Source of the DNA: Gammaproteobacteria bacterium
GTDB taxonomy: Bacteria; Pseudomonadota; Gammaproteobacteria; Pseudomonadales; Pseudohongiellaceae
DNA: 64,000 bases
Direction of reading: 5' to 3'
NCBI GenBank assembly: GCA_009692305.1
Contig: SHZK01000006.1
Coordinates: forward strand, 1 to 64,000
Below are positions 59,666 through 64,000 of this stretch, piece by piece. Made by a program: the position numbers and the translations under genes. Position 1 is the first letter of the stretch. Each line of letters starts with the position of its first letter. The notes under the pieces were generated by a model. The model was not told the DNA's origin. It saw only the letters and a program-made list of their open reading frames with translations, and did no database searches.

Positions 59666-60721
59666 TTAATTGCTGGTTCCATAAGTAGGCGCATAGGGAA
59701 CACCATCTGTTTCGGCACGGCGTGCACCAGCAAGAATGCCGGGCATTGCGTAATTGCCTTCATGACAGGCGTATTCAAATACTTTTTCATCGGTGCGACT
59801 CATGGGTAATTCGCCACTCCAGCTCTGCGAATAATTCTCCGGATCATTGACCGTAAACTGATAGAGAATCACATCATCACTCACGCGTGTGAAACGCTCT
59901 GTCACATGCATGGTGGTAGAACCGATAAACCGATGGGTCAGGGAAGAGCGCATACTTTCCTGAGGATGAAAACCGGTGGTTTCAACGACCAGCGTGTTGC
60001 CTTCATAGCGGCCAATGGAATCGCCCATCCACTCGTTAAAAGGCGGGTCGCGGAACTGCCCGTCCAAGCGAATAATTCGAGCATCGTGGTTCATCTCTGC
60101 CAGCAGCATGACATGGTCTTTGGTCTGCACGATCTGCGTCAGATTATTGTAGGCAACAGGTAGCTTGGGTGGCCCGGCCGTGGAACCAAAACCAACGAGA
60201 CAGCGTTCAGCCAGGGGCCTGACTTCGGGACCGTCATAGGTTTCACGCATCTGCATATCAGCAGCAAAATTGCCGCGGCCTGACTCGCTGAAAGGTAATT
60301 TACCGTCAGCAGGATCGACCAGAATTGAGGAGCGGATTTCACCGTTGACAACAGCCAGGCGATTGCCCGGATCCATCCAGAAATTGTTATAACCGCCCAC
60401 ATTGACGCCGGGGCGTGGCGCTTCCCGTTCGGGATCACTGGGTGCGTCACTGGCTTCGTTACGCGTGTCTATCATCGCTTCAAACTGCATGGCTTCTTCG
60501 CTGGAGAGAACCAGTCTGCCGTTATAACGATCCGGACGCTCCAACACCGTCTGCGATGCTATATTCCAGTTACCCTGCAGATCCGGAATTCCCCATTCTG
60601 TCAGTGGCGGGGTGTAGCTGTTCTGCGCCAGCACTGACATGGAAAAAAACACAGTCGCTGTAAGTGGCAATGAACGTACAAGTTCAGCCGCGCGGATTAT
60701 TTTTGGTATTGATGTCAACAT
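59666..60721 (-). CDS. Secreted protein of an uncharacterised family (copy 2 of 3)
   Basis: The 351-residue precursor has a leader of about 32 residues (ending SVLAQN). It shares with copy 1 (371-1333) the start LTEWGIPDLQGNWNIASQTVLERP, the GGYNNFWMDPG segment, AERCLVGFGSTAGPPKLP-AYNN, RYEGNTLVVETTGF, VTERFTRVSDDVILYQFTVND and YACHEGNYAMPGILAGARR. The function is unknown. It stands alone between two REP-like clusters. Confidence 0.75.
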   Translation of the reverse strand: MLTSIPKIIRAAELVRSLPLTATVFFSMSVLAQNSYTPPLTEWGIPDLQGNWNIASQTVLERPDRYNGRLVLSSEEAMQFEAMIDTRNEASDAPSDPEREAPRPGVNVGGYNNFWMDPGNRLAVVNGEIRSSILVDPADGKLPFSESGRGNFAADMQMRETYDGPEVRPLAERCLVGFGSTAGPPKLPVAYNNLTQIVQTKDHVMLLAEMNHDARIIRLDGQFRDPPFNEWMGDSIGRYEGNTLVVETTGFHPQESMRSSLTHRFIGSTTMHVTERFTRVSDDVILYQFTVNDPENYSQSWSGELPMSRTDEKVFEYACHEGNYAMPGILAGARRAETDGVPYAPTYGTSN

Positions 60722-60940: not shown

Positions 60941-61252
60941 ATGTCAGATGTTGCTGTATACATGGTGGTGAATTTGCACGTCACCGACGCCTCGAGCTAC
61001 CGCCAATATGAAAAAGGCTTCTTCCCGATACTGAAGCGATATGGCGGGGAGTTCGTAACCTACGACGACAACGCCTCGACACTGGAAGGTGTTTGACCAC
61101 GCACAGGCCGCATGATCCTTTTTAAGTTTCCGTCCGAAGTAAAGGCCCGTGCCTGGTATGCCCACCCCGAGTACCAGGCGCTGTCCGCACATCGGCGTGC
61201 GGGCACGAGGCTGGAGTTTCTGACGATGCTGCGGGGGCTGCCGCCGCGCTGA
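60941..61252 (+). pseudogene. DUF1330 family protein, interrupted by a stop codon
   Basis: From ATG 60941 (after AAGGAG) the frame encodes a normal DUF1330 protein of 103 residues: YMVVNLHVTDASSYRQYEKGF, LKRYGGEFVTYDD, PRTGRMILFKFPSEVKARAWYAHPEYQALSAHRRAGTRLEFL. Codon 52 is TGA (61094-61096), where relatives would have an arginine or similar (EGV-stop-PRTGRMIL). I see no hairpin after this TGA, so I read it as a nonsense mutation and not selenocysteine. Confidence 0.8.
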
Positions 61253-61288
61253 ACGACTGTGCGCAGCCGCGCTTGTCCTGCATTCATC

Positions 61289-61546
61289 TTGCTCCGGGCG
61301 CAGGAAATCTTCCATGGCTGCCGCGTCGAATTGATCCAGAAAGTGCAGGTCGACACCTGCCGACAAGCCCTTGCCCGCACCCCGCAGGATTATCACCCGC
61401 ACCGAAGTGTCGGCATCAGCTAGGCGCAAGGCGGCGTGGTACTCGCGCGTCGATTTTTCATCGATCAGGTTCAGCGGTGGACGGTCGAGCACGATCTCGG
61501 CGATGCCGGCAGCCACGCTATAGTTGAGGGTGTCAAAGGTGGTCAT
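61289..61546 (-). pseudogene. Enoyl-CoA hydratase/isomerase, N-terminal fragment
   Basis: From ATG 61546 the frame encodes VAAGIAEIVLDRPPLNLIDEKSTREYHAALRLADADTSVRVIILRGAGKGLSAGVDLHFLDQF, the first third of a crotonase-fold protein including the AG-x-D oxyanion segment. After about 86 codons the homology ends (FLRPEQ) and the frame runs on antisense to the DUF1330 gene to 60944. The rest of the gene has been lost. It begins 31 bp after the UGSC gene on the same strand, so it was once part of that operon. A 15-bp tandem (GTCAAAGGTGGTCAT) is present around its start. Confidence 0.78.
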
Positions 61547-61577
61547 GTCAAAGGTGGTCACGTCAAAGTTAGCTGCG

Positions 61578-62105
61578 TCATTTTCTCTGTAATACCAGCG
61601 CGTCGATGGCATCGAGCGTGGTGCTGGCGTGTGCATCAAGTTCAGCGCTGGTGGCGCTGCTAACGGGATGCTCGATGATCGCGAATCCGTAACCGGACAT
61701 GCCCAGCACGCGCGCCATCAATTCTGCCGCACTGACAAACTTCGATGTCATCACACCCACCGCCGGAGTGCCGATGCGTTCGCAGCTGATCGCGTCATGC
61801 AGACTGCATGACGAGCAACTGCCTCAGTCACCGAGACCGGTAATAGCCAGATCCCAGTCTCTGGCCGCGTCAATGAAATCCTGTTGCGCCGGGGCGCTGT
61901 AGTTTGACTTGGAGCGCAGCACGACTTCGGCAACCTGCCAGCGCTCTTTCAGCAGACGCTCGAGATGGGCGAAGAATACCGGCGTGCCTTCCTTGCCGTT
62001 GGAGATGAAGCCGACTCTCTTGCCTTTCAAGGAACTGATTCCTTTCGCTGGTTGAATTTCCTGCAGGTTGGATTCGCTGGTGGGGTCCAATACCTGAATT
62101 GTCAT
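61578..62105 (-). CDS. UGSC-motif protein, probable selenoprotein (in-frame TGA read as Sec94)
   Basis: One continuous frame of 175 codons runs from ATG 62105 to the stop at 61578 with a single TGA at codon 94 (61824-61826). The residues around it read ITGLGD-U-GSCSSCSLHDAISCERIGTPAVGV. The UGSC/CGSC family has selenocysteine or cysteine in exactly this place, as I remember from selenoproteome surveys of marine metagenomes. Before it lies an alpha/beta segment (LKGKRVGFISNGKEGTPVFFAHLERLL); after it VGVMTSKFVSAAELMARVLG. Ignoring the TGA would cut the protein just before its only motif. A SECIS-like hairpin follows at once. Function is unknown; the Sec with nearby cysteines suggests redox or selenol chemistry. 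The selA, B, C and D genes are not in the window. Confidence 0.85.
61782..61826 (-). promoter_or_regulatory. Bacterial SECIS-like hairpin directly after the Sec TGA
   Basis: After the TGA (61824-61826) and one base, GCAGTTG (61816-61822) pairs with CAGCTGC (61782-61788, one G-U). Inside, CGTCATGCA (61805-61813) pairs perfectly with TGCATGACG (61793-61801) around a GTC loop (61802-61804). The distance from TGA to the loop is 19 nt, within the range for bacterial SECIS. The apex GCA-GUC-UGC is much like that of E. coli fdhF (GCAG-GUC-UGC). The bulged U known from fdhF is not obvious here. Confidence 0.78.
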
Positions 62106-62174: not shown

Positions 62175-63215
62175 CTAACAATCGATACATACACCGATGC
62201 CGGTTGTGACCGCTTGACTCTTGGTGCCGAGCCACGGCGGGATGATGGCGCCAAAACCACCGGCGGGGCCGCCTGCCGCGACGACCAGCAGGTGGGCGGG
62301 CGAGGGTAGCGCGCTGTATTCCACATCACCCTTGTCCCGAATCACCGAGCCTTTGCCGACGCTGGCCCATTCGGCGCGCGTTATGCGGGCTTTACGGAAA
62401 AGATACTCCGCGACATCAGCCTTCGACCAGCCTGCGTTCTGCAAATGATCGCGATGTTGTTTGGGTATCACGACCACATAGTTGCCGGACCAGATCGAGT
62501 AATTACGCATATTGGCCCGCATCTCGGCGGCGTAGGTGTCCAGAATCTCCTCCGGCACGGTGGTCCACTCATTCATGATCTGGCGCGGAGCCCCGGCGGC
62601 AAGTACCGTGACTGCAGATGCTGCGCGCGGGATGCCGCGTAATTCCGCCAGAGACTGCCAGCTCGATCCTTCCTCGTCCTCGGCAATGCAATAACTGATC
62701 TTGCCGGGATGGCCGAGGGTGGAACGGTCAATGGCGCCGGGACTGACTTCGAGAATATTTATTAATCCGAGACGTATGGCGCGACCAATCACTGAAGTGG
62801 CGCGATCGCTGCTGCCGAGCACATTGAATTCACAGCCCGCGTTAATCTCTTTGCGAATGGGTCCGTTGAGGATGAGCAGTACGGCGCAGCCACCGGTACT
62901 GGCGGTGGCGCCGTGCAATAGAAACTCCGGTCGCAGCATGCCGGTCCAGGCGGTAACGACAGCGGGAAAGTGCAATGGCAGACAACCCGCCATCACCGCG
63001 TTGATCGCGAGCTTCTCGGCGATAATGGGTCGTTCGCGGACGGGTTCGATGCCGATGAGGGCATCGGCTTGCAGATTCGCCCACTCGAGGCAGGCGTTCA
63101 CAGCAGCGGGCGTTGGTGGCACCACAGGAAAACCATCGGTCCAGCCACGACTGTGATAAAACTCCTGCGCGTCAGACCAGCAATCGAGTTCGTAGTGTCT
63201 GGATGTGAGCGCCAT
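62175..63215 (-). CDS. Protein of unknown function, operon partner of the UGSC protein, C-terminal CxxC tail
   Basis: A 346-residue protein without signal peptide. The start is FYHSRGWTDGFPVVPPTPAAV; other notable parts are INAVMAGCLPLHFPAVVTAW, LHGATASTGGCAVLLILNGPI, GRAIRLGLINI and LLVVAAGGPAGGFGAIIPPWLG. It ends exactly at GVCIDC, a dithiol tail like those that serve as redox ends in other proteins. I know no reaction for it. It lies 69 bp upstream of the UGSC gene on the same strand, and its ATG overlaps the stop of the secreted-family gene (TAATG). I suggest that it works with the selenoprotein. Confidence 0.7.
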   Translation of the reverse strand: MALTSRHYELDCWSDAQEFYHSRGWTDGFPVVPPTPAAVNACLEWANLQADALIGIEPVRERPIIAEKLAINAVMAGCLPLHFPAVVTAWTGMLRPEFLLHGATASTGGCAVLLILNGPIRKEINAGCEFNVLGSSDRATSVIGRAIRLGLINILEVSPGAIDRSTLGHPGKISYCIAEDEEGSSWQSLAELRGIPRAASAVTVLAAGAPRQIMNEWTTVPEEILDTYAAEMRANMRNYSIWSGNYVVVIPKQHRDHLQNAGWSKADVAEYLFRKARITRAEWASVGKGSVIRDKGDVEYSALPSPAHLLVVAAGGPAGGFGAIIPPWLGTKSQAVTTGIGVCIDC

Positions 63216-64000
63216 TAATCCTGTTGACCGGGCAGTCCCTGTGCTTCCAGGCGGCGCCAGCCTCCGAGAATTCCCGCCATCGCGTAGTTGCCTTCATGAC
63301 AGGCGTATTCGTAAATCGGTTCTTCGGTTCGAACCATCGGAAACATTACTGTCCAGGGTGCAGTCCACGTAGTGGGATCGGTGATGGTGAATTCATAACC
63401 CAGTGTGTCGGCATCGATGAGCCAGAATTTTTCAAGCAGGTGCATATTCTCACTGGAGTTACCGAAAGCTGTTTCGCGGGCGAAGTGTTTCGTTTCAACG
63501 ATCAGGGTATCGCCTTCCCAGCGCCCGACAGAATCACCCTCCCACTTGCGCGGCTGCTGCCGAAATTCCGTTGTATACATTTTCACGGGACGAATGTTAT
63601 GCACCATCTCGTTGTGGATGAGCACATGATCGGCGGTCTGGATCAACTGCACATTATTGTTATAAGCACTCGGTATCATGGGCGGGCCGGAGTTAAAACC
63701 CATGATGCAGCGTTCCGACAGCGGCCGCACTTCCACACCAGCAGCCAACTGCGCCTCGTCTCTTCTGATGGCGTTTTTCGCCTCGGCGGCAGCGGTTAAA
63801 GCCGGAATGCGGCCGTTTTCTGGCGCAGTTACCAGCGAGGTGCGTCTGTCTCCGAGAATATCCGCACCGCGGTCATACCAGAATTCGTTATAGTCTCCGG
63901 TAGTCGAGGTATCGGTGAAGTTATCCCGGTCCCGTCGTTCCCGTTCCTCAAGCTCAAACTGCGCGGCTTCTTCGGCGGTGAGCGTCGCCTTGTTGCCAAG
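63215..64000 (-). CDS. Secreted protein of an uncharacterised family (copy 3 of 3), 5' end outside the window
   Basis: The frame is open from the window edge and covers at least 261 residues: LTAEEAAQFELEERERRDRDNFTDTSTTGDYNEFWYDRG, RTSLVTAPENGRIPAL, VRPLSERCIMGFNSGPPMIPSAYNNNVQLIQTADHVLIHNEMVHNIRPV, RWEGDTLIVETKHF and YEYACHEGNYAMAGILGGWRR. It is a paralogue of the proteins at 371 and 59666. Here it is the first known gene of the operon with the CxxC-tail protein and the UGSC selenoprotein. The start codon and signal peptide are beyond position 64000. Confidence 0.78.
   Translation of the reverse strand, partial: LGNKATLTAEEAAQFELEERERRDRDNFTDTSTTGDYNEFWYDRGADILGDRRTSLVTAPENGRIPALTAAAEAKNAIRRDEAQLAAGVEVRPLSERCIMGFNSGPPMIPSAYNNNVQLIQTADHVLIHNEMVHNIRPVKMYTTEFRQQPRKWEGDSVGRWEGDTLIVETKHFARETAFGNSSENMHLLEKFWLIDADTLGYEFTITDPTTWTAPWTVMFPMVRTEEPIYEYACHEGNYAMAGILGGWRRLEAQGLPGQQD

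Follow-up and report, generated by a model that had tools for sequence, protein, structure and literature searches.

UGSC proteins were on record as a selenoprotein family by 2008 at the latest (PMC2398784), and the family recurs in the accessible text of later selenoprotein papers (PMC13188914, PMC9402790, PMC5029168, PMC9312934, PMC7539508); a 2026 review, in its accessible part, places UGSC among the selenoproteins whose functions are largely uncharacterised (PMC13188914). A literature search that took in few of the subscription journals returned no functional study of UGSC, as judged by title or by the start of the abstract. Excerpts of this literature mention UGSC fused to a domain called Unknown_1, which may be the partner described below; that remark aside, these excerpts do not describe the partner pair, the partner dithiol or the operon of the second gene type (operon B) for UGSC. 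Two described groups share its selenocysteine motif. UxxC is given as the usual redox motif of thioredoxin-like selenoproteins (Prx-like and Trx-like) in an excerpt of PMC2398784, and a UxxC(xxC) motif is carried by GrdB/PrdB (PF07355), the selenoproteins of glycine, betaine and D-proline reductase; GrdB itself has UxxCxxC and acts with other subunits (excerpt of PMC13188914). By its listings, a search on aerobic glycine-reductase-like systems returned nothing on UGSC.

The window analysed here is a 64,000-nucleotide stretch of a gammaproteobacterial contig. The frame at 61581-62105 (-), closed by a TGA stop at 61578-61580, encodes 175 residues with a single internal TGA, in the context GLGD-U-GSCSSCSLHD (Table 1). 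The initial annotation had seen a TGA exactly at the U of a UGSC motif, within an otherwise continuous frame of 175 codons that standard gene finders would split; codon 94 is indeed that TGA, and ORF calling under translation table 11 broke the frame into ORFs of 93 and 60 amino acids. The read-through protein matched Pfam family PF24696 over residues 4-170 (E 4.3e-47; 160.9 bits against a gathering cut-off of 25). With the NCBIfam model NF041046, 'UGSC family (seleno)protein', it scored 122.2 bits and missed the cut-off of 125 by 2.8 bits; a second UGSC gene in the same assembly, on contig C56 and likewise with a TGA, passed at 134.2 bits. The window gene is referred to here as type A and the C56 paralogue as type B. 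The window protein resembles the known family (PF24696/NF041046) in sequence family, Sec position, motif and Sec/Cys exchange, and differs in being of type A, distinct from the type B paralogue that passes the cut-off. We regard it as virtually certain that the frame encodes a UGSC-family selenoprotein with TGA as its selenocysteine codon; since the UGSC family is already known, no new selenoprotein family is claimed. What is added to it is a co-occurring partner, the dithiol of that partner and a predicted fold.

Table 1. Features of the UGSC locus, in window coordinates
Feature	Position	Strand	Basis or remark
UGSC-family selenoprotein gene, 175 codons and stop	61578..62105	(-)	ATG at 62105; PF24696, NF041046
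TGA, codon 94, assigned as selenocysteine	61824..61826	(-)	conservation; selA, selB, selC and selD in the assembly
UxxCxxC motif (U94, C97, C100)	61806..61826	(-)	alignments and AlphaFold model
Whole predicted hairpin, outer and inner stems	61782..61822	(-)	fold and pair counts; in this register the outer stem is not conserved
Inner hairpin, SECIS-like, with 9-bp stem and GUC loop (61802-61804)	61793..61813	(-)	seven apical pairs conserved
Partner gene, 346 aa	62175..63215	(-)	directly upstream of UGSC, 69-nt gap; without a family model
Partner dithiol, C-terminal CIDC (CxDC)	62178..62189	(-)	Cx[DN]C tail in type A partners

For conservation of codon 94, one genome for each of 84,980 species was scanned and 486 places were confirmed as encoding a relative; the best 80 of the 486 were kept as named loci, which favours close relatives. 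Codon 94 was TGA in all 80 of these best-scoring loci, which by record title come for the most part from Gamma- and Alphaproteobacteria. The same was found in 100 of 100 distinct genes (87 type A and 13 type B) collected with a pattern in which codon 94 was free and GSCxxC was required. This pattern leaves out the divergent gene of genome G141, and the genes of G282 and G415 were obtained later; these three divergent members have Cys at codon 94 (GNCGSC, SDCGSC and VHCGSC for G141, G282 and G415, respectively), and the G415 gene also looks broken. No selB was matched at E <= 1e-60 in the three genomes with Cys-type members. Aligned as the initial annotation had proposed, the relatives therefore have either Sec or Cys at codon 94, as expected of [UC]GSC proteins, and the alignment remains conserved downstream of the TGA. 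Several short UGSC matches among 146 related genomes do not extend to codon 94 and were left out of this Sec/Cys evidence. The third Cys of UxxCxxC is missing from the UGSC proteins of G141 (GSCTGW) and of contig C7 of G129 (GSCTTG), the latter gene keeping its TGA.

The source assembly (3.08 Mb in 60 contigs, 94% complete, 1% contamination) contains all four genes of the selenocysteine machinery, for which a search elsewhere in the genome had been advised. These are selB (375 bits, cut-off 242; C1:515-2431), the tRNA-Sec gene selC (64.9 bits, cut-off 47; C1:5082-5173; called tRNA-SeC with anticodon TCA by ARAGORN), selA (578 bits, cut-off 268; contig C43) and selD (294 bits, cut-off 125; contig C56). 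Neither finding that the initial annotation had named as contrary evidence, a lack of selB/selC or relatives with neither Cys nor Sec at codon 94, was obtained. In the set of 146 relatives, 77 of the 86 genomes with UGSC gave a selB match, as did 7 of the 60 without it, a cross-table drawn up by reading the result lists. Of the nine genomes that have UGSC but gave no selB match at E <= 1e-60, eight carry TGA-type genes (G001, G007, G015, G032, G039, G058, G060 and G089); selB was likely missed in these eight, given their completeness of 65-94% and the scoring of no more than the best 8 candidates per genome (the best 3 in a set of 398 genomes spread over the phylum). In two genomes selB lies close to UGSC, within about 1.5 kb in G086 (G086:C2:725700-729502) and within about 2.5 kb in G448 (G448:C31:5009-9163). 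The selD match of the source assembly (C56:56608-57528) is inside a 757-aa frame; the part of this frame given to NCBIfam also matched an oxidoreductase/SelD-related fusion model, below its cut-off, and the N-terminal part resembles an NADH dehydrogenase-type oxidoreductase. The frame is probably an Ndh-SelD fusion.

Directly downstream of the TGA the RNA is predicted to form a hairpin with a 9-bp inner stem, a 7-bp outer stem and a GUC loop that begins 19 nt after the TGA. Folding of this region, a check suggested with the original observation, gave a minimum free energy of -23.5 kcal/mol (z -2.50), with 2 of 200 dinucleotide shuffles as stable, and against synonymous recodings that hold the protein constant the hairpin had z -2.95 (p 0.005). 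Pair counts over the 100 genes, types A and B pooled, showed that the seven apical pairs form in 98-100 of the 100, one of them varying between G-U, A-U and G-C, that the two lower inner-stem pairs form in 63-64, and that the seven outer-stem pairs, in this register, form in anything from 6 to 96. The two-tier hairpin described by the initial annotation was thus exact in geometry and fold, with only its apex conserved across the 100 genes; a stem-loop with a conserved apical loop directly after the UGA, as in selenoprotein genes, is present, and its outer stem is not conserved. In the synonymous recoding analysis, type B hairpins had a mean z of -2.54, 11 of 13 being at p <= 0.05; type A hairpins had a mean z of -1.44, with 36 of 87 at p <= 0.05 and the other 51 of 87 not unusually stable. 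Five control windows from the same genes, with 60 recodings each against 200 for the hairpins, gave mean z values of +0.06 to -0.47, and between 4 and 14 of about 100 reached p <= 0.05.

Serine codons within the hairpin were compared as well. In type A, all 87 genes have AGT for the serine at U+7 and TCG or TCA for the one at U+5, and 82 of the 87 have AGC or AGT for the one at U+2. Over both types, the loop serine at U+7 is AGT in all 98 of the 100 genes that have Ser there; among 1,092 serine codons that lie elsewhere than in the hairpin, AGT makes up 12.9%. Where U+7 is Cys, as in two genes, the codon is TGT, and therefore the GU of the loop is kept despite the change of amino acid. Judged from these sequence comparisons, the hairpin apex is selected as RNA, beyond the demands of the protein. 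An Rfam search around the gene returned no SECIS model at E <= 5, only chance-level matches. The apex had been likened to that of fdhF, and the sequences bear this out: the E. coli fdhF stretch TGCAGGTCTGCA, found in annotated fdhF genes, and the window stretch TGCAGTCTGCA both have the apical TGCAG(G)TCTGCA, and by hand count their GTC is equally spaced from the TGA. The fdhF SECIS has a four-base loop and a bulged U; the window hairpin, in contrast, has a three-base loop and no bulge in its upper stem.

For the UGSC protein, an AlphaFold model built from a 10-sequence alignment (pLDDT 85.5) showed a beta-alpha-beta-alpha-beta arrangement, U94 at the start of a helix, and then beta-alpha-beta-alpha. 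The helix spans residues 95-110 and follows strand 86-90, so that the motif sits at a helix N-terminus after the third beta strand. A Foldseek search with this model gave 1,852 matches at E <= 10; the 50 listed are mainly alpha/beta proteins with a query TM of 0.31 to 0.56, most of whose domains we take to be Rossmann- or flavodoxin-like. The fold is accordingly predicted to be Rossmann-like. In thioredoxin the motif comes directly after the first core strand; by its predicted topology and by the 50 listed matches, among which thioredoxin is absent, the UGSC protein would lie outside that fold. A weak partial match to isochorismatase in a PDB search with a UGSC alignment (E 0.048) vanished with a larger alignment and was put down to chance.

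The gene directly upstream seems new. Its 346-aa product had no match in Pfam, NCBIfam or PHROGs, and searching the PDB by sequence returned nothing. The partner model was of good predicted quality (pLDDT 86.5, pTM 0.89), and its comparison with solved structures by Foldseek gave no convincing match (best E 1.1e-3, TM 0.26); fumarate hydratase and cyclic amide hydrolase, which appeared in this search, were rejected at a TM of about 0.2. One member of the pair is truncated by standard ORF calling, and the other is without a model in the libraries scanned.

A homologue of this partner is adjacent to and upstream of UGSC in 75 of the 80 named loci (the best 80 of 486). In three of the remaining five it lies 2.2-3.8 kb upstream, and in two, L075 and L068, it was not found within the flanks examined; the L075 sequence begins 702 bases before the UGSC match, at a contig end. 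L068 probably corresponds to a contig of G063 that has the partner 6.7 kb upstream, outside the examined flank. Cultured environmental alphaproteobacteria with the pair include Acidisphaera sp. S103 and Desertibaculum subflavum (loci L105 and L113). When UGSC and the partner were searched for independently, both were found in the same 86 of the 146 relatives, the two genome lists being compared by reading them. In the 398 genomes spread over the phylum, both were found in the same 5, and neither was found in the other 393. The two genome sets overlap in part and are counted separately, and the partner search alignment includes sequences from some of the genomes searched. Gene order is reversed in the distant members of G141, G415 and one G279 locus, where the two genes are still adjacent. 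From co-occurrence and adjacency, it is very likely that UGSC and its partner form a functional pair. Two loci of reversed order represent additional kinds of UGSC locus: in the G279 locus (G279:C1:4572241-4574632) U-GSCSSW is followed by two partner-like matches, and on contig C7 of G129 HU-GSCTTG is followed by a partner without CxxC.

Partners of the two types differ in where a dithiol is found. In type A, each of the 74 adjacent partners that exceed 200 aa ends in Cx[DN]C, a count that leaves out one of the 75 adjacent partners, L091, with a split frame. Type B partners have no CxDC tail; their N-terminal domain instead contains CPTC, seen in 11 of 12 frames, and the remaining frame is a clipped copy of one already counted. 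In one copy this domain matched Thioredoxin_2 at E 1.1e-5, with 26.2 bits against a cut-off of 27; for the copy encoded in the window genome the match was weak, at E 0.0047. When the latter copy was compared with the PDB by phmmer, 9 of the 10 listed matches were thioredoxins, thioredoxin-like proteins or a designed thioredoxin, all weak (best E 0.11). The partners of G141 and of contig C7 of G129 contain no CxxC and also lack a CxDC tail; the G093 partner likewise lacks the tail but contains a single internal CEIC. It would appear from the alignments that type A and type B partners, and these only, supply the Sec protein with a dithiol, through two distinct architectures; the missing third Cys in the UGSC proteins of G141 and contig C7 of G129 fits a dithiol relay limited to these two types.

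Beyond the pair itself, clustering of neighbours in type A loci gave no constant neighbours and no single pathway. The variable neighbours, labelled from sequence without a family call, include enoyl-CoA hydratase-like proteins in 14 of 63 loci, luciferase-like monooxygenases in 7 and CoA transferase-like proteins in 6. For type B, twelve loci were examined, and the thioredoxin-partner frame groups with the others in 11 of them. A thiolase follows UGSC in 9 of the 12; these 9 also encode parts of an ABC importer of branched-chain or urea type, namely its binding protein and one permease, and 8 have a second permease. All nine come from the window's own genus, which contributes no other locus to the twelve; L140, L142 and L181, from outside this genus, are without thiolase, binding protein and permeases. 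The type B operon of the window genome includes Thiolase_N, Thiolase_C, Peripla_BP_6, BPD_transp_2 and UrtD/UrtE-like ATPases, and type B thiolase scores as an ordinary acetyl-CoA acyltransferase.

The explanation that best covers these results, and which we hold to be moderately probable as a whole, is a recoded UGSC selenoprotein acting in a two-subunit reductase with its upstream partner. The parts of it backed by the comparisons above are the recoding machinery, the conserved Sec codon, the selected hairpin apex and the exact genomic pairing. SelB with Sec-tRNA and the apical hairpin would recode the UGA at codon 94. The UGSC selenoprotein would probably be one subunit and the upstream 346-aa protein the other, as co-occurrence and adjacency suggest. 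Sec94, at the helix N-terminus of the predicted Rossmann-like domain, would attack the substrate or accept its leaving group, and Cys97 or Cys100 would then resolve the intermediate to give a selenenyl sulfide. The partner dithiol would in turn reduce the UxxCxxC centre in types A and B, presumably through the C-terminal CxDC tail in type A and, in type B, through the fused thioredoxin-like CPTC domain. Such a system would likely serve in the reductive processing of a small metabolite. A dithiol relay from partner to Sec centre in types A and B is tentatively put forward at slightly less than even confidence, lowered from slightly above even because divergent partners have no dithiol pair of either kind. 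Entry of the metabolite into CoA metabolism is doubtful, and was downgraded from a somewhat less doubtful standing because the company of thiolase and importer was seen inside one genus only. With a partner that co-occurs exactly and a candidate electron relay, what was an 'unknown redox protein' becomes a defined pair of proteins, open to purification and to trials with candidate substrates.

Three other explanations were weighed against this reductase. UGSC could be a thioredoxin-like selenoprotein whose neighbour is incidental, which the shared UxxC redox motif favours; the AlphaFold model, however, has three strands before the Sec and a predicted Rossmann-like topology unlike that of thioredoxin-like selenoproteins, the 50 listed Foldseek matches (of 1,852) are mostly other alpha/beta proteins, and the co-occurrence of UGSC and partner, exact in both genome sets, argues against an incidental neighbour. 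We consider this explanation unlikely. That the in-frame TGA reflects a nonsense mutation, a sequencing error or a pseudogene would account for the frame being split by standard ORF calling, and is practically negligible given a TGA at codon 94 in all 80 named loci, mainly of Gamma- and Alphaproteobacteria, conservation that persists past the TGA, and the presence of the Sec machinery. The conserved codon and the machinery likewise support the earlier judgement that Sec insertion is far likelier than a nonsense mutation.

UGSC and its partner might instead be an analogue or distant relative of glycine, betaine or D-proline reductase (GrdB/PrdB), the Sec cleaving a C-N or similar bond of an imported compound with electrons donated by thioredoxin, and a thiolase finally transferring the acyl group to CoA. 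A grd operon encodes a thioredoxin, a UxxCxxC protein and an acyl-transferring protein, and operon B in the window's genus combines a thioredoxin-like domain with a thiolase and an importer; in hhalign, moreover, the U and the UxxC Cys of UGSC fall on those of PF07355-type selenoproteins from related genomes. Against this, neither of two hhalign tests was significant: P was 0.072 with an alignment that included one PF07355-type protein (L157) with a spurious read-through tail, and 0.11 with that protein left out, and in this second test a score of 18.4, within the range of the shuffles, compares with a mean of 13.9 (sd 2.4, maximum 19.6) for 60 column shuffles. UGSC also differs in its neighbour gene and in Pfam, where it matches PF24696 alone and not PF07355 (GRDB) at E <= 0.001, and the type B thiolase, ordinary by score, is absent outside the genus. 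Homology to GrdB/PrdB was accordingly set aside, and the reading, retained as a rival only, is rather improbable. Equally improbable is its fullest form, a new two-subunit selenoenzyme class of aerobic marine and soil proteobacteria, similar to glycine/D-proline reductase, that would reductively cleave an imported nitrogen compound. The substrate would possibly be a quaternary or cyclic nitrogen compound, electrons would arrive through the dithiol that the partner carries in its CxDC tail or fused thioredoxin domain, and a thiolase would, in some lineages, pass the carbon skeleton to CoA.

PF07355 was found in 17 of the 146 relatives and not in the window's own genome. Genes of this GrdB/PrdB-like type, at L158, L163 and other loci of related genomes, have an in-frame TGA in a UPxC or similar motif in 13 of 14 cases, and the PF07355-type protein of L157 has Cys in place of Sec.

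Two further observations concern the surroundings of the pair in the window. The proteins encoded at 59666-60721 (-) and 63215-64000 (-), neither with a significant Pfam match, are alike by eye and lie on either side of a stretch that holds the UGSC pair and an enoyl-CoA hydratase-like frame. This frame, at 60944-61567 (-) just 3' of UGSC, matches only a 61-residue N-terminal part of ECH_1 and looks truncated or frameshifted.
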